A program made the position numbers and the translations under genes. Below the pieces are notes generated by a model, which was not told where the DNA came from, ran no database searches, and was given only the letters and a program-made list of their open reading frames with translations. From assembly GCF_014201145.1 (NCBI RefSeq), contig NZ_JACHDP010000001.1, positions 4,588,001 to 4,652,000 of the forward strand: a DNA stretch of 64,000 nucleotides, read 5' to 3'. Below, one piece after another: positions 45,193 through 57,453 of the stretch (the first letter of the stretch is position 1; the number at the start of each line of letters is the position of its first letter). The DNA is from Micromonospora parathelypteridis (GTDB lineage Bacteria > Actinomycetota > Actinomycetes > Mycobacteriales > Micromonosporaceae).

Positions 45193-46599
45193 ATGGCACG
45201 CGTGCTCACTCCCCGTGCGGAGGATTTCCCCCGCTGGTACCAGGACCTGATCGCCAAGGCGAAGCTGGCCGACAACGGCCCGGTCCGCGGCACCATGGTC
45301 ATCCGACCGGCCGGCTACGCCATCTGGGAGCGTATGCAGGCCGAGATGGACGCCCGGATCAAGGCGGCGGGCGCGGAGAACGCGTACTTCCCGCTCTTCA
45401 TCCCGGAGAGCTACCTCAAGCGTGAGGCCCAGCACGTCGAGGGCTTCTCGCCGGAGCTGGCGGTCGTCACCCACGGTGGTGGCAAGCCGCTCGCCGAGCC
45501 GGTGGTGGTGCGCCCGACCAGTGAGACGGTCATCGGCGAGTTCATGGCCAAGTGGATCGACTCGTACCGGGATCTGCCGCTGCTGCTCAACCAGTGGGCC
45601 AACGTGGTCCGGTGGGAGCTGCGCCCGCGGATCTTCCTGCGTACCAGCGAGTTCCTCTGGCAGGAGGGGCACACCGCGCATGCCACCCGCGAGGACGCCC
45701 GGGCGTACGCGCGGCGGATCCTGCACGAGGCGTACGAGGACCTGATGGTCAACGTGATCGGCATTCCGGTCGTGGTGGGCCTGAAGACGACGCGCGAGCG
45801 GTTTGCCGGCGCGACCGCCACGTACACCTGCGAAGGCATGATGGGCGACGGCAAGGCGCTGCAACTGGGCACCAGCCACGAGCTGGGCCAGAACTTCGCC
45901 AAGGCGTTCGACATCAGCTACTCCTCCAAGGAGGGCGGCCGGGAGCACGCCTGGACCACCTCCTGGGGCACGTCGACCCGGATGCTCGGTGGCCTGATCA
46001 TGGCGCACGGCGACGACAACGGTCTGCGCGTGCCGCCGAAGCTGGCGCCGATCCAGGCGTACGTCATGGTGGTCAAGGACGGCGACGGCGTGGGCGAGGC
46101 GGCGGCCAAGCTGCGCGACGGCCTGCGCGACGCCGGTGTCCGGGTCGCGCTCGACGACCGGACCGACACCCCGTTCGGCCGCCGGGCCGTCGACGCCGAG
46201 CTGCGCGGCTATCCGGTACGCGTCGAGGTGGGCCCCCGTGATTTGGCCGCCGGCAACGCGGTCGTGGTGCGGCGGACGGACGGCTCGAAGTCCCCGACGC
46301 CGGTGGCCGACGTGGTCGGCGCGGTGTTGGCCGCCCTGGAGACCGACCAGCAGGTGCTGCACGACCAGGCGCTGGCCAACCGCGAGTCGCGCACGGTCGA
46401 GGTGGCGACCCTCGCCGAGGCGATCGAGGCCGCCGCGACCGGCTGGGCCCGGGTGCCGTGGTCGGCGGTCGGCGTGGCCGGCGAGGCCGAGGCGAACGGT
46501 CAGGGCGTCACGGTGCGCTGCCTGCTGCGTGCCGACGGCTCGGTGCCGGACTCCGAGGACGAGCCCGACCTGATCGCCATCCTCGCCCGCGCCTACTGA
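45193..46599 (+). CDS. proS: Prolyl-tRNA synthetase, type 3 (archaeal/eukaryotic-like)
   Basis: A 468-residue class II synthetase charging tRNA-Pro. It is the short form without the bacterial editing insertion. Class II motif 2 is seen around NVVRWELRPRIFLRTSEFLW followed by QEGHTAH, motif 3 in TSWGTSTRMLGGLIMAHGDD, with an anticodon-binding domain (about 290-390) and the carboxy-terminal zinc-type domain ending in Tyr, typical of this form. ATG 45193 begins MARVLTPRAEDFPRWYQDLI. Type 3 ProRS is common in Actinobacteria. Confidence 0.96.
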   Translation: MARVLTPRAEDFPRWYQDLIAKAKLADNGPVRGTMVIRPAGYAIWERMQAEMDARIKAAGAENAYFPLFIPESYLKREAQHVEGFSPELAVVTHGGGKPLAEPVVVRPTSETVIGEFMAKWIDSYRDLPLLLNQWANVVRWELRPRIFLRTSEFLWQEGHTAHATREDARAYARRILHEAYEDLMVNVIGIPVVVGLKTTRERFAGATATYTCEGMMGDGKALQLGTSHELGQNFAKAFDISYSSKEGGREHAWTTSWGTSTRMLGGLIMAHGDDNGLRVPPKLAPIQAYVMVVKDGDGVGEAAAKLRDGLRDAGVRVALDDRTDTPFGRRAVDAELRGYPVRVEVGPRDLAAGNAVVVRRTDGSKSPTPVADVVGAVLAALETDQQVLHDQALANRESRTVEVATLAEAIEAAATGWARVPWSAVGVAGEAEANGQGVTVRCLLRADGSVPDSEDEPDLIAILARAY

Positions 46600-46600
46600 G

Positions 46601-47269
46601 GTGCGGCCGGGCAACCCTGTCGACCGGTTCGCGCCCGGTCGGCTGATCATGCATCGAAACGTGCGGCACGGTCGGATCGGGTGGGTTCGGCCGGCCCGTG
46701 TGGTCAGTGACGACGATCGAGGGTTGCTGGTGTGGATCGCCCGGGATTCGCCGGTGGCACACGAGGTGACCGAGGCGGGGCTGGGGATGCGGTCGATGCC
46801 GTTCGCCCAGTGGATCTCGTCGACGTACCGGCTGGCGGAGGGCCACTGGAACGGCCCGCCGCTGCTGAAGTTCCTGCCCACCGGCGCGGCCCACTCGGTC
46901 TGGTGGTTCCGTGACGCCCAGGGGCGCTTCCTGAGCTGGTACGTCAACCTGGAGGAGCCGGGCGTCCGGTGGGACGACGGCTCGGTGGCCGGGGTGGACG
47001 TGGTGGACCAGGACCTGGACGTGGTCGTCCACCCGGACCTCAGTTGGCAGTGGAAGGACGAGGAGGAGTTCGTCGAGCGGCTGGCCTTCGGTGCCGACTA
47101 CTGGGTGACCGACGAGGCCGCGGTACGCGCCGAAGGCAAGCGGGTGATCGGCCTCGCCGAGGCGGGCGTCTTTCCGTTCGACGGCACCTGGTGTGACTAC
47201 ACCCCGCCGCCGAACTGGGGCGTACCGGATGGGCTGCCTGCCGGCTGGGACCGCCCACCAGTTCGCTGA
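46601..47269 (+). CDS. DUF402 domain protein
   Basis: A 222-residue protein of the DUF402/FomD-like family, whose characterised members hydrolyse nucleotide conjugates or nucleoside di/triphosphates with metal. The conserved acidic core SWYVNLEEPGVRWDDG, DVVDQDLDVVVHPDLSWQWK and DEEEFVERLAFG carries the metal ligands. GTG 46601 is 1 bp after the proS stop, so it may be co-transcribed with proS. Substrate unknown. Confidence 0.85.
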   Translation: MRPGNPVDRFAPGRLIMHRNVRHGRIGWVRPARVVSDDDRGLLVWIARDSPVAHEVTEAGLGMRSMPFAQWISSTYRLAEGHWNGPPLLKFLPTGAAHSVWWFRDAQGRFLSWYVNLEEPGVRWDDGSVAGVDVVDQDLDVVVHPDLSWQWKDEEEFVERLAFGADYWVTDEAAVRAEGKRVIGLAEAGVFPFDGTWCDYTPPPNWGVPDGLPAGWDRPPVR

Positions 47270-47372
47270 CCTGCATCGATTACCCTGTGTCATCCTGCAG
47301 ACATAGAGGGTGTGCGAGCGGTGTGTCGGCCTAGGGTTTCAGGCAACGACACCCCCAGTGGTGGGAGGCCCG

Positions 47373-47939
47373 ATGGCCGACCAGATCAACACCTTCTCCG
47401 ACCTGCAGGCCCGCGCCGGCGTGATCCTCGCCCGGCTGAATGCCGCTCCCGCCGTCGCGATCGCGGCAGCCACGAATCCGCTGCTGGCCGTCGAGCACCT
47501 CGGCTACGAGTTCAACCCCGAGACCCGTACCGGCATCGGTGACCGCATCCGGCTCGGACCGGCCGCCGCCGAGAAGCTCGCCGACCTGCGTACGACGATC
47601 GCCCGGTTGGTCGACCGCCAGGTCGACCCCGACGACGGCCCCGCCGTCCGCCGTCTCCTGACCGACCTGGGCGTGTTGCCGTGCTCGGACGGCGATGAAC
47701 CGGACACCGACCCGCCGCGCTGGCAGCCCGGCGGTGCCGGCCCCGACCCGCTGGAACCGTTCCGGGACCGGCACCCGGTGATGGAACCGCTGTTGGAGTA
47801 CCGGAGGATCTCCGCCCGCCGGCCGAGGTTCGCGCCCCCGCAGGCCTTCGCCGCGATCCTCAGCGGCGCGGTGACCACACCGTTGACGGCCGCGAACGGC
47901 CGGCTCCAGTCGCCGGAACCCGACACCAACCCCCGCTGA
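47373..47939 (+). CDS. Unknown 188-aa protein, first gene of the PKD/protease/isoprenoid cluster
   Basis: Not recognised. An amino-terminal helical part (INTFSDLQARAGVILARLNA, residues about 5-100) is followed by a proline-rich, probably disordered region and a carboxy-terminal segment with VMEPLLEYRRISARRPRF. There is no signal peptide or membrane helix. GGGAGG lies before ATG 47373. The gene is on the same strand as the next five, 114 bp before the PKD gene, so it may head their operon; TAGGGT at 47332 is a possible -10. Confidence 0.7.
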   Translation: MADQINTFSDLQARAGVILARLNAAPAVAIAAATNPLLAVEHLGYEFNPETRTGIGDRIRLGPAAAEKLADLRTTIARLVDRQVDPDDGPAVRRLLTDLGVLPCSDGDEPDTDPPRWQPGGAGPDPLEPFRDRHPVMEPLLEYRRISARRPRFAPPQAFAAILSGAVTTPLTAANGRLQSPEPDTNPR

Positions 47940-48053
47940 CCATCGGGCGGCCCGTCGCGCGGCGACGGCCCCCGAGCATGTCCTGACGTCCGGTCCGGCA
48001 TCCGGCCGTCCACACCCTCCGGCCTCCACCACATCGGCCCCGAAGGGGGACCA

Positions 48054-51000
48054 ATGGCCGACACCCATGGCTTCGAGGTCGTCGTCGAGGCGACTTCGCC
48101 CGTTCTCCGCAAGGCCCTGCAGGGTGCCTGGAAGTCGGCCGAGTGCGGCGACACCAGCACCGACGAGGGACGCATTCCGCAATACCTGCCGGTCCCGGCC
48201 GGCCTCGGCATCGGCGGGTTCACCACGGCCGGTGGCCAGGTGGAGATCCCCCGCGACCAGCTCGACGCCACCCCACGACCCGACATCGACGGCTGCGAAC
48301 TCACCTTCGGCCTGGTCATCCAGGTGACCGTCGCCGACCCGCCGGTGCCATCCGCGCAACTGCTGGACCTCACCGCCACCGCGCACGCCGCCGTGCCGAT
48401 CGGGGTGCTGCCCGACTCGAAGAACGTGGGGCTGCGCTTTGACGGCCTGCCCCGCAGCGCGGTCACCGCGACCCTGACCAGCGGCGACCCTCTCGCCCCG
48501 AAACTCGTCCAGATCCTCGGGGAGTACATCCACTTCGCGTACGAGAACGGCGGCCCCGGGGGCGTGCTGCATCCCGGGATCCCGGCGATCCCGCACGAGC
48601 AGGACGACACCGGGCTGGTGCTGGGCCTCGGCGTCGGCAGTTACACCCTCGACACCCACCTGGAGATCTACGACGACCAGGCTGATCCCGCCCACCGGAT
48701 CGACGTCAGTCAGCCGGATCCGGGGCACGTCCTCATCAGCATGCCGATCTACCTGCGGATGTTCCACATCGTCGGCAGTGGTGCGGCACCCGCGCTGGCC
48801 GACCCGATGGCTGTGGAGACGCGGCTCGCCATCACGGTGCCGCTGGAGACCCCGCCGGGGGCGTACACGTTGCGCTTCGACACCGCGACCGTGGTGGCGG
48901 GGGCGATCAACCCGGCGCCCGGCATCGAGGGCACCCACTTCACCACCAACAACGCCACCCTCTTCGGGTTCCTCGACAACGCGCTGCAAGCCCAGCTCAA
49001 CCAGCAGGGGGCGGCGCTGGTGCACGGCTTCGGGTCGCAGAGCGTCGTGGTGCCCACCGTGGCGCAGATCGAGACGGCCATCGGCGACCTGCTCTTCGAC
49101 GACCTGGCCGCCCGGGGCTTCCTTGCCCTGTGGACGCCGGAGGTCGGTGGCGAGGTGTTCGAGGCCGACAACGTCGCCACCCGGGTCTTCGCCGACCTGC
49201 TGGTGATCGCGATCAACGCCGGCGAGGGCGCCGACATCGGGGCGATGACCAACGTCGTACCGGCCGGGCGGGACTTCGCCATCCTGCTCGACGGGACGAT
49301 CGTGCAGGAGAACATCGACTCCGCCCGGGTCACCAACGGTTGGGCGGACAGCGACCTGCCGCGCCGTGTCGACCAGGGCGACGACAAGGCGGACGTCCGC
49401 GAGCTGGACGTCGTACTCCGCGAGGGGTCGATCCGGATGACCGGGGAGTTGACCGTCATCGACGCGATCCTCGGCAGCATCGACGTCGACGCCAGCTTCC
49501 GGGCCGACGTGGGACTGCACTGGACCCCGAGCGGCGACCTCAACCCCGACGGCGTCCAGCGGATGGACAACCACCTGATCGGCGAACCGGACGTCGACCC
49601 CGAGGAGTCGGTCCTGTTCTGGGTCATCGCCGTCATCCTGGCGATCATCAGCTTCGGTGCCGGGAGCATCCTGATCGGGATCATCATCATCGTGGTCGCC
49701 GCGGTGGTCACGGCCGTGGTCAACAACATCGGCGGATCGCGCCTCGTCGACCCGATCACCGGAGCGGTCAGCGGCATCACCGGCTGGCCGCCCGAGCTGG
49801 CCCGGATCGGGCGGGTCAGGGCCGTCTTCTTCGACCCGATCGTGATCAACGCCGACGGCCTCGTCCTCGCCGGTGACCTGGAGGTGCTCAGCTCCTGTGA
49901 GAGCACCGAGGTACTCGCCGCCCGCAGCAGCGGACCGTACACCGGGACGGCCCAGTCGGCCCTGCTGTTGGCCGCCGGGCACACCAGCGCGGCGGCCGGC
50001 TACACCTGGCTGACCGGCGACGGCACGGCACCCGCCGCCACCGAGAACGTCAACCACGTCTACGCCGCCAGCGGCGCCTACCTGGCGGCGCACTCGTTGA
50101 CGATCAACCAGCCCGGCGGCGCCACCAGCCGCCACTTCGCGTTGGTGTACGTCGCCAACGTGCCGCCCACTGTCGACGCCGGCCCGGACCTCACCGTCGA
50201 CGAGGGCGAGATGGTCACACTCGTCGGCCGGTTCAGCGACGTCGAGTACGCCGACACCCACGAGACCACCTGGAACTTCGGCGACGCCCAACCCACCGAG
50301 CCGGGCACGGTCGTGGAGACCAACACCCCGCCCCGGGCCGAGGGCACCAGCACCGTCCAGCACGCCTGGTGCGACAACGGTGTGTACGAGGTGACCCTGC
50401 GGGTCCGGGACCAGAACGGTGGGATGGCGACCGACACCAGGACCGTGACGGTGCGCAACGTCCCGCCCGTGGTCGACGCCGGCCCCGATCTGTTCACCTA
50501 CCCCTGCACGGTCCTCACCCTCACCGCCCGGTTCACCGATCCCGGTTGGTGCGACACGCACACCGCCGTCTGGGACTTCGGCGACTGCACCCCGCCGCTT
50601 CCGGCCGTGGTCACCGAGACGCACGAGCCGCCGGCGGGCCGGGGGACCGCCGTGCTGTCCCACCGCTATCCGGACTGCGGCACGTTCCTGACCCGGTGCA
50701 CGGTGGTCGACGACGACGGTGGGACCGGGTTCGACGAGTTGGTGGTCCGGGCCATCGACGTGGTCAACCGGCACTTCGAGGACGGGTTCGCCCAGCGCAC
50801 CACCGGACAGGTCGCCAACGGCTGGGAGCCGTACGTGCTGGCCGGCTCGGCGGCCGGCGGCACCGGCCAACACGTCGCCAGCAACTTCGTGGTGCACGGT
50901 GGTCGCCGGGCCCAGGGGCTCGTGCCAGGTCCGCAGCAGCGGGTCGGCGTCCGGCAGCAGATCGGGGCCAACCCGGGCTGGGCCTACCAGCTCACCGCCT

Positions 51001-51827
51001 GGTACGACCTCGACCAGGCCGAGCCCGCGACGGCTCGGCTCGGCGTCGACCCCACCGGCGGCACCGACCCGACCTCCGCCGCCGTCGTCTGGACCGACGG
51101 CACGAGCGCCCAGCGGTGGAGCCCGCTGACGGTACGCGTCGCCGCCCAGGCCGCCGCGGTGACCGTCTTCCTGGAGGCCGCCGCCGGCGGGGGTGAACCC
51201 CGAAGGGGCGGCGGACGGGTGTGGTTCGACGACGTGGACCTGCTGGCGGCGCAGCCGTACTGCCCGCCGGAGCAGCCGCCGCCAAGGCCGCGCGACTGCC
51301 TCGACTTCGCCGGCCGTCAGCCCGGCACGCAGTACCCGGCGGAGTGGACCGACCACGAGTTCCTCATCCGTTCCCTGGACGGCGCCGGCCGGGTCGTCGT
51401 CGCGGTCGGGCTACCGACCGGCGGCGCGGCCCTCCAACTCGGCGCCGGCGTCCAGGTCGAACTGCCCCACCCGGCGGACCGGGTCGTCGTCACCCTGGCC
51501 AACCAGGGCGGCAAACCGGTCGAGCTGACCGCGCTCGACGACGACGGTACGCAGCTCGACCGCGTCGACGTGCCGGCGAACTCGCCACCGGGCCCGGCGA
51601 CGGTGACTCTCGTCGGCCCCGGCATCGTCGCCGTCCGGATCGTCGGACGGTCGGCGGAAGGGCTGCTGGTCCGGCTCTGTGCCGAGTACGACGACGACAC
51701 CGAGCCCGGCGACAACTCCGCTGACGACCACGGCGACCCCACGTCGCACCCCGCTCCGATCGACCCCGGTGTCACCGGTCCGACGCGTCGGACCGACCCG
51801 CCGCTCCGTGGTGGCTGCTGTGGTTGA
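48054..51827 (+). CDS. Large PKD-domain protein, 1257 aa, ending GGCCG
   Basis: No signal peptide. Residues 1 to about 520 are beta-rich and not recognised. A hydrophobic hairpin follows at about 523-560 (VLFWVIAVILAIISFGAGSI, then LIGIIIIVVAAVVTAVV). Two PKD domains begin at about 703 (PPTVDAGPDLTVDEGEMVTL) and 803 (PPVVDAGPDLF), each with the W-x-F-G-D strand. Then come a carbohydrate-binding-like beta domain (about 905-1065), a Pro-rich link and another beta domain. The last residues are RGGCCG. PKD domains usually occur in surface proteins. It overlaps the next gene by 8 nt. Confidence 0.8.
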   Translation: MADTHGFEVVVEATSPVLRKALQGAWKSAECGDTSTDEGRIPQYLPVPAGLGIGGFTTAGGQVEIPRDQLDATPRPDIDGCELTFGLVIQVTVADPPVPSAQLLDLTATAHAAVPIGVLPDSKNVGLRFDGLPRSAVTATLTSGDPLAPKLVQILGEYIHFAYENGGPGGVLHPGIPAIPHEQDDTGLVLGLGVGSYTLDTHLEIYDDQADPAHRIDVSQPDPGHVLISMPIYLRMFHIVGSGAAPALADPMAVETRLAITVPLETPPGAYTLRFDTATVVAGAINPAPGIEGTHFTTNNATLFGFLDNALQAQLNQQGAALVHGFGSQSVVVPTVAQIETAIGDLLFDDLAARGFLALWTPEVGGEVFEADNVATRVFADLLVIAINAGEGADIGAMTNVVPAGRDFAILLDGTIVQENIDSARVTNGWADSDLPRRVDQGDDKADVRELDVVLREGSIRMTGELTVIDAILGSIDVDASFRADVGLHWTPSGDLNPDGVQRMDNHLIGEPDVDPEESVLFWVIAVILAIISFGAGSILIGIIIIVVAAVVTAVVNNIGGSRLVDPITGAVSGITGWPPELARIGRVRAVFFDPIVINADGLVLAGDLEVLSSCESTEVLAARSSGPYTGTAQSALLLAAGHTSAAAGYTWLTGDGTAPAATENVNHVYAASGAYLAAHSLTINQPGGATSRHFALVYVANVPPTVDAGPDLTVDEGEMVTLVGRFSDVEYADTHETTWNFGDAQPTEPGTVVETNTPPRAEGTSTVQHAWCDNGVYEVTLRVRDQNGGMATDTRTVTVRNVPPVVDAGPDLFTYPCTVLTLTARFTDPGWCDTHTAVWDFGDCTPPLPAVVTETHEPPAGRGTAVLSHRYPDCGTFLTRCTVVDDDGGTGFDELVVRAIDVVNRHFEDGFAQRTTGQVANGWEPYVLAGSAAGGTGQHVASNFVVHGGRRAQGLVPGPQQRVGVRQQIGANPGWAYQLTAWYDLDQAEPATARLGVDPTGGTDPTSAAVVWTDGTSAQRWSPLTVRVAAQAAAVTVFLEAAAGGGEPRRGGGRVWFDDVDLLAAQPYCPPEQPPPRPRDCLDFAGRQPGTQYPAEWTDHEFLIRSLDGAGRVVVAVGLPTGGAALQLGAGVQVELPHPADRVVVTLANQGGKPVELTALDDDGTQLDRVDVPANSPPGPATVTLVGPGIVAVRIVGRSAEGLLVRLCAEYDDDTEPGDNSADDHGDPTSHPAPIDPGVTGPTRRTDPPLRGGCCG

Positions 51828-52056
51828 ACCTGACTCGCTCGACGCCGTCCGTGCCGTGCTGGCCGCGCACCGGGCCGACCTCACCCGACGGTTCGCCGCC
51901 GTCGGCACCGGCATCGGCCGGCCCGACCCGTCCGGCCCGTATGTCATCACCGTCTACGTCACCAACCCCGTGTTGGTGGCCCTCACCAGCGAGCGCGTCG
52001 ACGGTGTCGCGCTGCGCTTCGTGCTCACCGGGCCGTTCGAGGCCCGCCGAACCTGA
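51820..52056 (+). CDS. 78-aa protein resembling the protease's amino-terminal domain
   Basis: Not assigned to a family with certainty. It has a helix (SLDAVRAVLAAHRADLTRRF), a Gly-rich turn AVGTGIGRPD, a strand YVITVYVTNP and an end VALRFVLTGPFEARR. The next protein has a similar order: LAYGRREVSG, LVVYVVRKVP, then VVETGPFFA. It could be a stand-alone propeptide- or inhibitor-like domain for the protease. GTG 51820 overlaps the PKD stop; GTG 51808 and 51811 are alternatives. Confidence 0.6.
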   Translation: MVEPDSLDAVRAVLAAHRADLTRRFAAVGTGIGRPDPSGPYVITVYVTNPVLVALTSERVDGVALRFVLTGPFEARRT

Positions 52057-52089
52057 TCCATCACCCCGTTGCACCGGCAGGAGGCGGCC

Positions 52090-53682
52090 ATGTCCAATCC
52101 GAACGACGACAGCTACGTCAAGGCCCGGGCGTTGGCTCGGGCAGCCCGTCAAGGACCACTGGCCGGGCTGCTCGGCGACCCGAACGTCAGCGGGCTCGCC
52201 TACGGCCGACGGGAGGTCAGCGGCCGCCGCACGGACGAGCCGGCCCTGGTCGTGTACGTGGTGCGCAAGGTGCCGAGGCAGTTCCTGCCCACCACCCGGC
52301 TGCTGCCGCGGCGGGTCTACTTCGGGCCCGACTTCGTCGAGGTCGACGTGGTGGAGACCGGACCGTTCTTCGCCCAGGAGTTCACCGCCCGGGAACGTCC
52401 GGCACCCAACGGGGTGAGCGTCGCGCACATCGACGTCACGGCCGGCACGCTTGGCGCGCTGGTCACCGACAACACCGACGGTTCGCTCTGCATCCTGAGC
52501 AACAACCACGTGCTGGCGAATTCCAACGCCGGGGCGATCGGCGACGCGATCGTGCAGCCCGGCTCGTACGACGGCGGCACCGCGCCGGCCGACACCATCG
52601 CCACGCTCAAGCGATTCGTCATGATCAACCCGGCGGGCAACCGGGTGGACTGCGCGATCGGCCAGGTCGCCCAGCCCAACGACGTGATCGACCGGGTCAA
52701 GGACGACATCTTCCCGGTGGCCAGCAGCGACCATCCGGCGATCGGTCTGCTCTTCGCCGGCTCGTGCAACCGGACTTTGATCAATCCCATCGACGAGGTG
52801 CTGCGCCAACTCGACGTGACCTTCCTGAGCGGCGCGGGTGCGATCGCCGGCGTCGACATCGGCAGCAACGTGGAGAAGGTCGGCCGGACCACGGAGTACA
52901 CCACCTCCACGGTGACCGAGCTGGATGTCAGCGCGAGCATCGACTACGGCCCCGGCGTCGGCGTGGCCACCTTCGAGGGCCAGATCGCCACGGCCCACCT
53001 GTCCGAGGGTGGCGACTCCGGGTCGGTGGTCTACCTGGGCGGCGAGGGTGGCAACGAGAGCGCCTGCGGCTGCGCCTCCAGCAGCGCCGCCCGCCGGGTC
53101 CTGGACCGTGACGTCGACCTCGACGTGGCGGTCGAGAAGGAGTTCCGGCAGCGCTACCTGCAGCAGACCAGGGTCGGCCGGTTCGCTGTCGACACCTACT
53201 TCGCCAACGAGGACGCGCTGGTGGCCCGGGCCCGTGCGTCGAAGCTCTCCGACGCCGATCGGCGGCACCTGCAGAAGCTCTACGACACCTACGCCGAGAC
53301 GGCCCGTGCGGCACTGCTCCAGCCGCAGCGGTCCGAGGCGACGCTCACGACCGAGCACCTCGACGAGGCCCGCAAGACGCTGCGCCGCTTCGCGGACCGG
53401 ATGACCGCCGAGGAGGTCTCCGCCGCCGAGGAGGTGCTGGCGCTGGCGAACGACGCCGTCGGTCGTACTCCGGTGGAGATCCTGCGGATGCTCGACGACG
53501 AGCAACTGCTGCACAAGGCGCAGGAACTTGTCGAGCGGGTGCCGACGCTGTGTGCTCCGGGCAGTGGCCGGCGGGGCGACGGTGGTTGTGGCTGCGGTGG
53601 CGGTGGGAGCGGTGGTGACCCCGGCCAACCGGCGGCTGAGAAGCCCACCAAGCCCAAGCCGAAGCCGAAGCGGAAGCGGTGA
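52090..53682 (+). CDS. NAL1-like trypsin-fold serine protease with basic tail
   Basis: A 530-residue protein without signal peptide. Residues about 1-110 form an amino-terminal domain (LAYGRREVSG ... LVVYVVRKVP ... VETGPFF) seen in NAL1-like proteases. The catalytic triad is readable: His in SNNHVLANSNAG (about 140), Asp in RVDCAIGQV (about 195), Ser in EGGDSGSVVYLGG (about 309). A helical region (about 350-480) follows, then a Cys/Gly-rich stretch CGCGGGGSGG and a Lys/Pro tail. CAGGAGG precedes ATG 52090. Its stop overlaps the polyprenyl synthase start as GTGA. Confidence 0.82.
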   Translation: MSNPNDDSYVKARALARAARQGPLAGLLGDPNVSGLAYGRREVSGRRTDEPALVVYVVRKVPRQFLPTTRLLPRRVYFGPDFVEVDVVETGPFFAQEFTARERPAPNGVSVAHIDVTAGTLGALVTDNTDGSLCILSNNHVLANSNAGAIGDAIVQPGSYDGGTAPADTIATLKRFVMINPAGNRVDCAIGQVAQPNDVIDRVKDDIFPVASSDHPAIGLLFAGSCNRTLINPIDEVLRQLDVTFLSGAGAIAGVDIGSNVEKVGRTTEYTTSTVTELDVSASIDYGPGVGVATFEGQIATAHLSEGGDSGSVVYLGGEGGNESACGCASSSAARRVLDRDVDLDVAVEKEFRQRYLQQTRVGRFAVDTYFANEDALVARARASKLSDADRRHLQKLYDTYAETARAALLQPQRSEATLTTEHLDEARKTLRRFADRMTAEEVSAAEEVLALANDAVGRTPVEILRMLDDEQLLHKAQELVERVPTLCAPGSGRRGDGGCGCGGGGSGGDPGQPAAEKPTKPKPKPKRKR

Positions 53683-54668
53683 CAGTGGGCAACGCAACCG
53701 GCCCGGACTGGCTGGCCAGCGCCCGTACCCTTGAGGCGCTGGCCGGCCTGGACCGGCGGATGCGGGAGGCCGTCGCCGCGTCGGACCCGGCCTTGTGGGC
53801 GATGGCGACGGCACTGCAACGCCGTGGCGGCAAGCGGATCCGTCCCGCGCTGCTGCTGGTCGCGGCTGAATTCGGCACCGTCCGTCCGGCACACCTGCTC
53901 GACGTCGCCGCGGCGTTGGAGTTGCTGCACCTCGCCTCGCTCTACCACGACGACGTGATGGACCGGGCCGTCACCCGGAGGCACGGCCCCAGCGTCAACG
54001 CCGAATGGGGCGAGCCGGCGGCCGTGGTGGCCGGGACCTTCCTGGTCGCCCGGGCGATCGCCCTGCTCGCCGCCTTCGACGACCGGTACGGCCGGGAGGC
54101 GGCCGCCGCGCTTGTCGCGCTCTGCACGGGCCAGCTCCGTGAGACGGAGAACGCGTTCTACACCGGACTGACCGAGGCCGAGCACCTGGAGATCATCGCC
54201 GGCAAGACGGCGACCCTGTTCGAGTTGCCCTGCCGGTTGGGCGCGCTGCTCGCCGGGGCACCGCCGGCGACCGTGGAGGCGCTCGCCGGGTACGGCCACG
54301 ACCTCGGAGTCGCCTTCCAGCTCACCGACGACGCGCTCGATGTGCGCGGCAGCTACGCGGCACTCGGCAAGCGGCCGCTGACGGACGTACGGGAAGGGGT
54401 CTACACCATGTCGGTGCTGCGGTTGCTGGCCCGCGACACACCGGCGGCCGGGCGGGTGCGCGACCTCCTGGAGGTACGCGAACCCACTCCGGCGGAGCTG
54501 GCCGAGGTGGCCGACCTGGTGGTCGCCTCGGGTGCGGTGGACGAGGTCCTCGCCGAGGCCCGGAGCAGGGCCGCGCAGGCCGCCCGGCGCCTGGACGCGC
54601 TGCCGCCAGGCCCGGCCCGGGACTCGCTGGTCCGACTCGCCGACTACGCCGTCAGCCGGGCGGGCTGA
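53679..54668 (+). CDS. Polyprenyl diphosphate synthase (trans-isoprenyl type)
   Basis: A 329-residue isoprenyl synthase condensing IPP with allylic diphosphates. The first Asp-rich motif YHDDVMDRAVTRRHG (DDxxD, about residue 89) and the second QLTDDALDVRG (DDxxD, about residue 217) are intact, as are KRIRPALLLVAAE and the GKTATLFELPCRLGALLAG helix. Chain length cannot be read safely. GTG 53679 overlaps the protease stop, an unusual partner; the fused reductase follows 1 bp after the stop. A substrate-supply role for that reductase is likely. Confidence 0.92.
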   Translation: MTVGNATGPDWLASARTLEALAGLDRRMREAVAASDPALWAMATALQRRGGKRIRPALLLVAAEFGTVRPAHLLDVAAALELLHLASLYHDDVMDRAVTRRHGPSVNAEWGEPAAVVAGTFLVARAIALLAAFDDRYGREAAAALVALCTGQLRETENAFYTGLTEAEHLEIIAGKTATLFELPCRLGALLAGAPPATVEALAGYGHDLGVAFQLTDDALDVRGSYAALGKRPLTDVREGVYTMSVLRLLARDTPAAGRVRDLLEVREPTPAELAEVADLVVASGAVDEVLAEARSRAAQAARRLDALPPGPARDSLVRLADYAVSRAG

Positions 54669-54669
54669 G

Positions 54670-56748
54670 ATGGTCACGCCGACCCCGACGATGGTTCCGG
54701 ACCGGCTCGACGGCTTCGACGCGATCGTGGTGGGCGCCGGCCCCGGCGGTGCGGCCGCGGCGTACCGGCTGGCGGTGTTGGGCCGCCGGGTCCTGTTGAT
54801 CGACCGGCGCGAGTTCCCCCGCGACAAGTGCTGCGGCGACGGCCTGACCCGCAGCGCCGTGCGTCTGCTCGCCGGAATGGGAGTGCTCGACGAGCTGACG
54901 GGCGCCCAGCGGGTCGACGGGGTGCGGATCCGGATGCGCGGGCGAGGTGGGCGCGACTTCCACTACGAGGACTCCGACGGCACCGGGTACGGCATGGTGG
55001 TGCCCCGGCTGGAGCTGGACGCGGTGCTCTGCCGCCGGGCGGTACGCGCCGGGGCGGTGCTCTGGACCGGGGCACGCGCCACGCGGCTGCTCGGCGGCGC
55101 CGCCGGGGTCCACGGCGTGCAGGTCGAGTACGAGGGCCGCCGATTCGCGCTGCGTGCCCCGGCGGTGGTCGCCGCCGACGGGGCCTCCTCGCGGCTGGCT
55201 CACCAGGCCGGGTTGCGTAGTCCGGACCGGGAGTGGACCGGGTTCGCCGCCCGGGGCTACTTCACCCAGGTGGCGGACCTCGACGAGTTGCTGGAGATCC
55301 ACCTACCGCTGGCGGACGTAACGGACCGACGGGTGCTGCCCTCCTACGGCTGGGTGTTCCCGGTCGGCGACGGGACGGCCAACGTCGGCGTGGGCCTCTT
55401 CGACCCGGCCCACCGGGAGAACGTCCGGTTGCTGTACGAGCGTTTCGTCGCCGAGTTGGCGGCGACCGATCACCGGTTTCGGGCGGCCCGTCCGGCCGGA
55501 CCGATGACCGGTGCGCCGCTGCGGCTGGACTTCGACCCGTCCCGGTGCGGTGTGCCGGGCCTGCTGCTGGTCGGCGACGCGGCGGGGCTGGTAAGCCCGT
55601 TCACCGGCGAGGGCATCAGCTTCGCCCTGGAGTCGGGCCTGCTCGCCGCCGACCGGATCGACACGGCGCTCCGTCGCGCCGGAGCAGGACCGGTGGATCC
55701 AGCTCCGTACGCCCGGCAGTTGGCCGCCCGGCAGTCCGGCTATTTCGAGACCGGTCGGTACTCGGTGCGCCGGTACCTGCTCGCCTGGCGGGTGCTCGAC
55801 GCCACGTTCGACGACGACCGCCCACTCTTCGCCCTCTGCCGCCGGCTGGCGCTCTTCCCGGACGGGGCGCGGGCCGGTGTCCTGCTGGACCCGCTGCCCC
55901 GGCCGGCTCCGGAACTCGCCCGCGACCTGCGGCGCGATCTCCTGGCGGTGGGCGAACTGCTGGCCGGCTGTGTTCGGGAGGACTGGCCGATGTTCGTCCG
56001 GCTCGGCGGGGTGGACGAGGATCTGTCGACCCTCTCGCTGCGTCCGGCGGTGCTGCTGCTGGTCGCCGCAGCGGTCGGGGGCCGTGAACACTCGCTACGG
56101 CACGCCCTCGCCGCGGCGGTGGACCTGGGTCTGCTCGCCGGGTTGGCGGTGGACAGCGCCCGGGAGGAGACCCGGTCGGCCGGGCCCCGACCGACGCCGT
56201 GGGGCAACCGGTTCGCGGTGTTGGTCGCGGACTTCCTGTTGGCCCGCGCGTACGAGTTCGCCGCGCAGGGCGGTGGCCCGGTGGTCGCCGAGTTCGCCGA
56301 GGCGTTGACCGTGGCCTGTGAGGGTCGGGCTCTGGAGTTGCGTGACGACCCGTCGTCGGCCGGTGGTCCTGTCCTGGCCGGGCGGGCCGCCATCGCGTTC
56401 GAGTTGCCGTGTCGGCTCGGCGGTCGGCTCGGAGGCGCCCGGGTGCCGGTGGTGAACGCGTTGGCCGCGTACGGTCGCGAGGTCGGTGCGGCCTACGCCC
56501 TCGGCGAGCAGCTTCGGGAGCTGGCAGGGGCGTCCCGGTGGGGCGGGTCGGCGCAGCCCGGGGCGGCTACGCGCGACGACCCTCGGGTGGCCGGGCTGCT
56601 CGGCCTGGTCGCCGAGCACGCCCAACGGGCGCGCGAGGCGCTGCGGGTGGTGCCCGCCGGCCCGGCCCGCGAGCTGCTGGCTCGGCTGGCCGCCCCCGGG
56701 CTGCCGGGCCCCGTGGACCCCGAAGGCAGGGTGATGTCGGTCACGTAG
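54670..56748 (+). CDS. Geranylgeranyl reductase-family flavoprotein fused to a degenerate polyprenyl synthase domain
   Basis: A 692-residue protein in two parts. Residues about 18-415 are a GGR-type FAD oxidoreductase: FAD motif VVGAGPGGAAAAYRL, the diagnostic DKCCGDGLTRSAVRLL, and the second FAD segment LLVGDAAGLVSPFTGEGISF; such enzymes hydrogenate isoprenoid double bonds. Residues about 440-690 resemble the synthase next door (RPAVLLLVAAAVGG; AIAFELPCRLGGRLGG), but the first motif region reads LAVDSAREE and the second ALGEQLRELAG, so both DDxxD motifs are gone. I know of no described fusion of this kind. Confidence 0.85.
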   Translation: MVTPTPTMVPDRLDGFDAIVVGAGPGGAAAAYRLAVLGRRVLLIDRREFPRDKCCGDGLTRSAVRLLAGMGVLDELTGAQRVDGVRIRMRGRGGRDFHYEDSDGTGYGMVVPRLELDAVLCRRAVRAGAVLWTGARATRLLGGAAGVHGVQVEYEGRRFALRAPAVVAADGASSRLAHQAGLRSPDREWTGFAARGYFTQVADLDELLEIHLPLADVTDRRVLPSYGWVFPVGDGTANVGVGLFDPAHRENVRLLYERFVAELAATDHRFRAARPAGPMTGAPLRLDFDPSRCGVPGLLLVGDAAGLVSPFTGEGISFALESGLLAADRIDTALRRAGAGPVDPAPYARQLAARQSGYFETGRYSVRRYLLAWRVLDATFDDDRPLFALCRRLALFPDGARAGVLLDPLPRPAPELARDLRRDLLAVGELLAGCVREDWPMFVRLGGVDEDLSTLSLRPAVLLLVAAAVGGREHSLRHALAAAVDLGLLAGLAVDSAREETRSAGPRPTPWGNRFAVLVADFLLARAYEFAAQGGGPVVAEFAEALTVACEGRALELRDDPSSAGGPVLAGRAAIAFELPCRLGGRLGGARVPVVNALAAYGREVGAAYALGEQLRELAGASRWGGSAQPGAATRDDPRVAGLLGLVAEHAQRAREALRVVPAGPARELLARLAAPGLPGPVDPEGRVMSVT

Positions 56749-56967
56749 CGGCGACGGGCGGGCCCGCCTGGGGCTCCGGTGCGAGTGATCGGCGCTCCAT
56801 CTGGCAGAATGGGTCGCTGGTATCCGGCGCGCGTCCGGCGCCCTCTAACCCGGGCACGTCGCTAGTCCACCGAGTAGTCTCCGGCCCAACCCCACGGGTC
56901 CGGTCGGCGCTCACCCATGCACACCGCCCGTACGGGTCGGTGAGATCGCAACAGGAGCGAAACAACT

Positions 56968-57453
56968 GTGGCCGTAAAGATCCGGCTCCTGCGGATGGGC
57001 AAGATCCGCAACCCGCAGTACCGCATCGTCGTCGCCGACTCGCGCACCAAGCGTGACGGCCGGGCGATCGAGTTCGTCGGTGTGTACCAGCCGAAGGAAG
57101 ACCCTTCGATCATCGAGGTCAAGTCGGAGCGGGTCCAGTACTGGCTGTCCGTCGGCGCTCAGCCGAGCGAGGCGGTTCAGCGGCTGCTGGAGCTGACCGG
57201 TGACTGGCAGAAGTACAAGGGCCTGCCGGCCCCGCCGCCGCTCCTGGTCGCCCCCGAGCGGGCCGACCGCAAGGCGGCGTACGAGGCTGAGGCGAAGGCT
57301 GCCGCCGGGCTCGCCCCGGAGACCCCGGCCAAGCCGGCCAAGAAGGCCGCCAAGGCTGCCGAGGCTCCGAAGACCGAGGCTGCGGCTGAGGCGCCGAAGA
57401 CCGAGGCTCCGGCCGAGGCTCCCGCCGCTGCCGACGCCGGTGAGCAGGCCTGA
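56968..57453 (+). CDS. rpsP: 30S ribosomal protein S16
   Basis: A 161-residue protein; the first roughly 85 residues are S16 ([45 protein letters not shown]). The rest is an Ala/Lys/Pro/Glu-rich tail with repeated EAPKTEA units, common in actinobacteria and probably disordered on the ribosome surface. GTG 56968 follows CAGGAG. CAGAAT at 56805 is a candidate -10, giving a leader of about 150 nt. It heads the rpsP-khpA-rimM-trmD run. Confidence 0.96.

Follow-up and report, generated by a model that had tools for sequence, protein, structure and literature searches.

Why should a giant PKD protein, a serine protease and two isoprenoid enzymes be encoded side by side? The question is raised by six open reading frames (ORFs), named g1 to g6 in order, on the forward strand of a 64,000-nucleotide stretch of the Micromonospora parathelypteridis genome (contig NZ_JACHDP010000001.1; hereafter the window). 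We computed the order and conservation of the genes, the folds and homologies predicted for their products, losses of motifs and the pairing of proteases with companion domains. On balance these data favor a multi-phylum system that invariably pairs a Pol I-derived domain with a giant TULIP carrier; a dedicated polyprenyl synthase and reductase, coupled through a fused dead synthase domain, would feed this pair, and interchangeable proteases with companion domains would control it. We put at about even the chance that the cassette supplies this dedicated TULIP carrier with a long-chain polyprenyl lipid that it has synthesized and partly reduced. An initial annotation of the locus had called the set undescribed, and no description turned up in the open literature searched; the components are known and the assembly is, as far as that search extends, new. 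The six genes are:

47373..47939, + strand: g1, 188 aa; homologous in part to the thumb of family-A DNA polymerase
48054..51827, + strand: g2, 1257 aa; predicted double TULIP fold, PKD domains and a C-terminal domain common to accessory protein X
51820..52056, + strand: g3, 78 aa; putative companion domain of the NAL1-type protease
52090..53682, + strand: g4, 530 aa; NAL1-type trypsin-like serine protease
53679..54668, + strand: g5, 329 aa; active-type polyprenyl diphosphate synthase
54670..56748, + strand: g6, 692 aa; flavin adenine dinucleotide (FAD) enzyme of the geranylgeranyl reductase family with a degenerate polyprenyl synthase domain

An ORF check of the window bore out the gene number, strand and lengths given in the initial annotation, as well as its four junctions (g2/g3 overlap of 8 bp, g3/g4 gap of 33 bp, g4/g5 overlap of 4 bp and g5/g6 gap of 1 bp), and added a g1/g2 gap of 114 bp that it had omitted. 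The family labels assigned to g2, g4, g5 and g6 also held (E values are given with each protein). The g4/g5 overlap is GTGA at 53679-53682; alone it tells little, because at least two other gene pairs of the window share a 4-bp overlap. No terminator-like site was identified in 46500-57000 (mean of 2.0 in shuffled sequence), a finding of little weight. Chance is exceeded by the conservation of the gene set across phyla.

Spread and linkage of the cassette

A search of the GTDB species genomes using a 25-sequence g2 alignment, limited to two peptide patterns, yielded 30 loci, with g2 present over most of its length in 26 of them (L050-L074 and L077). The loci carried labels of at least six phyla (Actinobacteria, Proteobacteria, Bacteroidota, Gemmatimonadota, Chloroflexi and others). 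Named carriers were Micromonospora lupini, M. arborensis, Massilia (two), Bradyrhizobium, Ruegeria, Dyadobacter, Flavivirga, Lewinella, Marinilabilia and Pinibacter; carriers among metagenome-assembled genomes comprised Mucilaginibacter and genomes labeled Gemmatimonadaceae, Anaerolineae, Deltaproteobacteria, Burkholderiales, Clostridia, Saprospiraceae and others. Analysis of the loci with full-length g2 revealed g1 directly upstream in every case (26/26), a polyprenyl synthase within the locus in 22/26 and a reductase in 18/26. All six genes were also found in Dyadobacter and Flavivirga, in the order g1-g2-g4-g5-g6-g3. Across phyla, then, the genes travel as a set, in support of the initial annotation, except that the protease slot proved variable.

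We also examined linkage at the protein level. A protein database contained 140 g2 relatives (E <= 0.001); the best 120 of the 140 shared 37-94% identity with g2, and 114 of these 120 aligned over >=95% of the query. Among the relatives listed, 25 of 119 g6 proteins could be paired with one of the 120 g2 proteins by identical size of the carrying contig, compared with a mean of 0.3 pairings (maximum 2) in a control that shifted contig sizes at random by at most 5%. Pairwise distances of g1, g2, g5 and g6, compared as matrices, were correlated (r = 0.73-0.92) across the 22 loci containing all four genes (including the window and L040-L042; the g5 of L073 is another synthase of that locus), with 0/999 permutations as high for each of the six pairs.

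The cassette occurs in two layouts. Layout A (the window, L040-L042, L050-L055, L074 and L077) has the order g1-g2-[protease]-g5-g6, with g6 fused to the dead synthase domain. Layout B (16/26 loci) comprises g1-g2 together with accessory protein X (110-250 aa), accessory protein Y (~240 aa) or both. No protease match was found in the 16 layout B loci; a synthase was present in 14/16, and 10/16 had a reductase that lacks the fused domain. X was identified in 16 loci and Y in 14, excluding matches of X inside g2 (an example is the stretch L064:5127-6616, with equivalents elsewhere). The second half of X resembles the C-terminal part of g2, and the X members scanned gave no Pfam match; Y is helical and Ig-like, with weak Ig/NEW3-like matches only. 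In L059 and L065, g1-g2 alone were seen. The joint protease-synthase unit proposed in the initial annotation is thus not obligate: a protease is absent from three Micromonospora-like genomes and from layout B, and a subtilase takes its place in three loci. That annotation had also held that separate occurrence of the genes in relatives would count against a common system. Such separation was not seen for g1-g2 and mostly not for the synthase; it was seen in part for the protease, and in two genomes without g1 and g2.

A NAL1-type protease, a synthase and a geranylgeranyl reductase-synthase fusion also lie close together in two other genomes of the family (L043:7737-13952 and L044:10550-20000), where profiles of g1, g2, g3 and the g2 tail found no match. 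Genes for BTAD regulators occur near the L043 set and in L045, the next stretch of the L044 contig.

The giant g2 protein and its proposed partner g1

Pfam identified three PKD_4 stretches in g2 (PF18911, E = 4.3e-31), and the N-terminus is predicted to have the two-lobed tubular lipid-binding fold of the TULIP (P47-BPI) superfamily. The parts of g2 are:

48054..49883, + strand: predicted double TULIP (BPI/CETP/P47-like) fold, residues 1-610
49608..49733, + strand: predicted hydrophobic helical hairpin, residues ~519-560
49905..50150, + strand: first PKD domain, residues 618-699
50157..50453, + strand: second PKD domain, residues 702-800, the best PF18911 stretch

The double TULIP fold predicted for residues 1-610 is what g2 has in common with P47, OrfX2, OrfX3, BPI, LBP and CETP, at 8-13% identity in structural alignments. 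PKD domains, a hairpin and a C-terminal domain set g2 apart from P47/BPI-type proteins, as do neighboring genes that look like those of prenyl-lipid enzymes. As a predicted lipid carrier, g2 would be a bacterial TULIP protein whose candidate ligand is made by the products of adjacent genes. An internal hydrophobic stretch was present in 105/105 g2 sequences, with the best 19-residue Kyte-Doolittle mean within residues 515-565 above 1.6 in 105/105 (lowest 2.4); the hairpin model has helices at 522-533 and 539-559 (predicted local distance difference test of 64-78 for the block). Six cysteines of g2 were kept in 96-100% of 25 members.

The best fold matches of the N-terminus include P47, OrfX3 and OrfX2, and they bring into view an OrfX/P47-like complex that is secreted for conflict or delivery, in which g2 would carry lipid or bind target-cell membranes and the protease would activate the complex once it has been released. 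The conserved hydrophobic stretch, the patchy spread across phyla and the presence of a protease with a companion domain would suit such a complex. We nevertheless consider it unlikely, as no toxin or OrfX family was matched by the six window proteins, and a word search of PMC7020563, on orfX-p47 clusters, found none of the words PKD, polyprenyl and reductase. A word search of PMC6791001 found neither PKD nor prenyl. No PADLOC-DB family matched g1-g6, X or Y, giving no anti-phage assignment. The one match was that of the Ruegeria subtilase (L055:14265-15662) to the PADLOC subtilase and IetS models, probably only via the common S8 domain.

In the TULIP-carrier system that we favor, the second invariant member is g1. 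Over residues ~60-152, g1 shares homology with the thumb of the family-A DNA polymerases (Pol I): a g1 profile matched Taq polymerase (E = 9.8e-11) over Taq residues 462-541 only, and 15/23 g1 members matched PF00476. The N-terminal part of g1 is helical and contains NPLLAVEHLGY. Unlike Pol I, g1 is a stand-alone protein of ~190 residues, and neither polymerase catalytic motifs nor a complete domain with a catalytic palm is present in its 188 aa. A piece of DNA polymerase I thus appears to have been reused as a stand-alone partner protein.

The protease slot and its companion domains

The g4 protein is a NAL1-type protease (NAL1_N, 31.8 bits against a cut-off of 27, E = 1.2e-7). Its triad, which we take from its motifs to be H140 (52507-52509), D187 (52648-52650) and S310 (53017-53019), was invariant in 4/4 cassette proteases, and the protein is 55% and 50% identical to its Dyadobacter and Flavivirga counterparts, respectively. 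A NAL1-type protease occupied the slot in the window, L050, L051, L052 and L074, and a subtilase in L053, L054 and L055; nothing was matched in the slot of L040-L042. In L077 (Massilia sp. Root335), g2 and the synthase flank a HopA1-LanC protein of 902 aa (L077:14800-17508), and g2 of this locus is split over two reading frames.

The small g3 protein or a relative was found in 5/5 NAL1-type loci (L051 by tblastn). It follows g2 in Micromonospora and stands at the cassette end in Dyadobacter and Flavivirga, where it has a hydrophobic start and a cysteine resembling a lipoprotein signal; in the relatives P0028, P0029 and P0035 the same domain is fused to the C-terminus of g2. A g3 profile matched four of the 11 sources searched (the window, L050, L052 and L074) and not the remaining 7. 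When a profile was built from eight g2 tails, it matched the end of g2 in L055 (7e-57) and L053 (2e-20) and, in L054, a small gene that stands apart from g2 (8e-19); it also matched the subtilases of L053 (9e-6) and L054 (8e-5) in their N-terminal region. Across these 11 sources, subtilase loci were never matched by the g3 profile, nor NAL1-type loci by the tail profile. The pattern in the subtilase loci is what a copy of a prodomain or inhibitor would look like, and g3 may by analogy play such a role. The slot thus draws on the NARROW LEAF 1-type and subtilisin-type protease families; unlike their known members, the proteases here are interchangeable cassette parts, each with its own companion domain, and appear to be swapped along with it.

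Several further features of these proteins were observed. Residues 325-385 of g4 (53062-53244) include a weak CFI-box-CTERM match (E = 0.0021, residues 343-385), beside which cysteines 326 and 328 were invariant in 4/4 cassette proteases. A conserved protein of 150-158 aa lies between the subtilase and the synthase in L054 (15512-15964) and L053 (15501-15977), with 47% identity between Bradyrhizobium and Massilia. A second weak NAL1-type match was present in the genome of the window (G000:C1:5736304-5736735, in L027; E = 5.1e-5, 31% identity).

A protease among prenyl-lipid enzymes could also serve protein modification. A reduced prenyl donor from g5 and g6 would become covalently linked to a protein (g1, g2 or the protease itself), and the product would be trimmed by the protease, in the manner of ribosomally synthesized and post-translationally modified peptides (RiPPs). 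HopA1 and LanC domains are known from lanthipeptide synthesis, which makes the L077 protein suggestive, as are the two invariant cysteines of g4, the six conserved ones of g2 and the weak matches of single g1 members to models of RiPP leaders (leader_NHLP, 0.047; mod_pep_NH_fam, 0.12). These leader matches are not significant, however, and the HopA1-LanC case represents 1/26 loci. Moreover, no separate prenyltransferase was recognized among the six proteins, and g1 is conserved over its whole length and Pol I-like rather than a short precursor. We give this explanation a small chance.

Lipid enzymes, proposed pathway and genomic site

A synthase and reductase that feed the g2 carrier would be encoded by g5 and g6. 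The g5 protein matched the polyprenyl synthetase family (PF00348, E = 1.1e-57) and has both Asp-rich motifs of an active trans-polyprenyl synthase (DDVMD, 53949-53963; DDALD, 54327-54341); two DDxxD motifs were present in 12/12 layout A synthases (the window and 11 loci). Its closest solved relatives are annotated as geranylgeranyl diphosphate (GGPP), nonaprenyl, octaprenyl and decaprenyl synthases, and the residues AS at -5/-4 before the first motif correspond to what we take to be the long-chain pattern, so that g5 looks like a long-chain synthase. The N-terminus of g6 (residues 16-330) matched the geranylgeranyl reductase superfamily (TIGR02032, 201.4 bits against a cut-off of 158.8, E = 2.5e-59) and carries the FAD GxGxxG motif as GAGPGG. 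Its C-terminus matched polyprenyl_synt over residues 458-610 (E = 1.2e-7):

56041..56499, + strand: Pfam stretch of the degenerate synthase domain of g6, in which neither Asp-rich motif is kept

The first DDxxD was incomplete in 118/118 aligned fused domains, the window included, and the second was intact in 11/118. The fused domain, having lost the first motif throughout, is therefore probably a dock for the active synthase. Heteromeric prenyl synthases, such as heptaprenyl synthase I + II, likewise combine a catalytic subunit with a partner; unlike in these enzymes, the cassette has as its proposed partner a dead paralogue that forms one protein with a flavin reductase. A homologue of the synthase that is itself inactive, GRP, is described in rice (PMC9399743): by pairing with GGPP synthase it makes that enzyme more efficient and recruits it to a complex that includes geranylgeranyl reductase. 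The plant GGPP synthase-GRP/small subunit-reductase complex thus resembles the cassette in having an inactive homologue that links an active synthase to a reductase. Unlike in rice, reductase and presumed recruiter are parts of one protein, the synthase looks long-chain, and the system is bacterial, with a TULIP protein and a protease. The cassette resembles a gene-fused bacterial version of the plant complex of synthase, recruiter and reductase, and channeling from synthase to reductase is therefore testable with two proteins.

The best NCBIfam hit of g5 was the family 2 encapsulin cargo polyprenyl transferase (NF041169), at 211.9 bits and below the cut-off of 450, and this assignment was rejected; no encapsulin shell model was among the NCBIfam matches listed (for g6, the best 25 of 108).

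The two enzymes might instead tailor menaquinone or another respiratory lipid, as a second side-chain synthase and reductase set with g2 as quinone carrier. Micromonospora menaquinones are partly saturated, and g6 scores with the MenJ menaquinone reductase model (NF045655, 158.6 bits). This score is far under the cut-off of 700, and the assignment of g6 as MenJ was rejected. The same genome encodes a separate reductase (G000:C1:3544807-3545892, 43% identity) and other synthases, one of them ~17 kb from that reductase, and a reductase match was present in 121/121 genomes of the family sample compared with a cassette in 4/30 same-genus loci. As it would also leave the conserved g1 and the protease module unexplained, we regard menaquinone tailoring as quite unlikely.

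For the reduced polyprenyl lipid and its TULIP carrier, we propose the following pathway. g5 would build a polyprenyl diphosphate, and the dead synthase half of g6 would pair with g5, as in heterodimeric synthases, bringing it to the reductase half, which would saturate one or more isoprene units. The reduced chain would then be held in the lipid tunnel of g2. The hydrophobic hairpin may keep g2 at a membrane, and its PKD/C-terminal part would serve as an interaction arm. In the subtype with a protease (NAL1-type or subtilase), the companion domain lies on the g2 C-terminus or in its own gene, so that the protease would probably be kept inactive on or near g2, and then mature g2 or be released once the assembly forms. 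g1 may be a scaffold or a nucleic acid-binding partner of g2. These steps, from the chemistry on this lipid through docking and loading to inhibition, are inferred, as is the role of g1.

Several points weigh against this pathway, in which both lipid and activity are predictions. In the DNA analyzed, no reductase was seen in 8/26 loci and no synthase in 4/26 (L056 and L061, on contigs of 9.4 kb and 7.5 kb, and the longer L059 and L065). In layout B the reductase is on the opposite strand in 6/10 loci, and only the first DDxxD of the synthase is complete in 12/14. Correlated gene distances are also expected from common descent, and host relatedness contributes to them. Enzymes of the geranylgeranyl reductase superfamily use other substrates too; the Foldseek TULIP matches of g2 had low whole-length TM-scores, and the fold does not prove which lipid binds. 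The inhibitor role is only an analogy, because g3 gave no profile match to the NAL1_N domain and the g2 tail no Pfam inhibitor match; the L055 subtilase, moreover, was not matched by the g2-tail profile. The initial annotation had proposed a surface or membrane assembly that uses a reduced polyprenyl lipid. The prenyl-lipid enzymes and the predicted lipid-binding fold agree with this proposal, but "surface" is unproven: a simple hydropathy test found a hydrophobic N-terminus in 0/105 g2 sequences, and g2 has no signal-peptide-like start.

That an insertion merely joined unrelated genes is extremely improbable: the cassette is rare, has a single site in the genus and its protease genes come and go, but the same genes are linked in records labeled with at least six phyla. 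A DUF402 gene was present in 61/61 same-genus genomes, and its 30 best matches, including that of the window, were used to check the site (the remaining 31 genomes lay outside this check). The site was empty in 26/30 loci, with rpsP ~230-350 bp after DUF402; in the other 4/30 (the genome of the window, L082, L083 and L106), DUF402 was followed by g1 and the start of g2. Three Micromonospora-like genomes with another genus label (G048, G010 and G068) carried g1-g2-g5-g6 without g3 and g4 at the same junction, with rpsP seen nearby in 2/3 and rimM and trmD in 3/3. The patchy presence within the genus and the relatives in other phyla point to horizontal spread of the cassette. In the window, the cassette is preceded by an amidohydrolase gene, a prolyl-tRNA synthetase gene (TIGR00408, above cut-off) and the DUF402/FomD-like gene at 46601-47269, and is followed by genes at 56968-57453, 57688 and 58250 that, by their position, are presumably rpsP, rimM and trmD.

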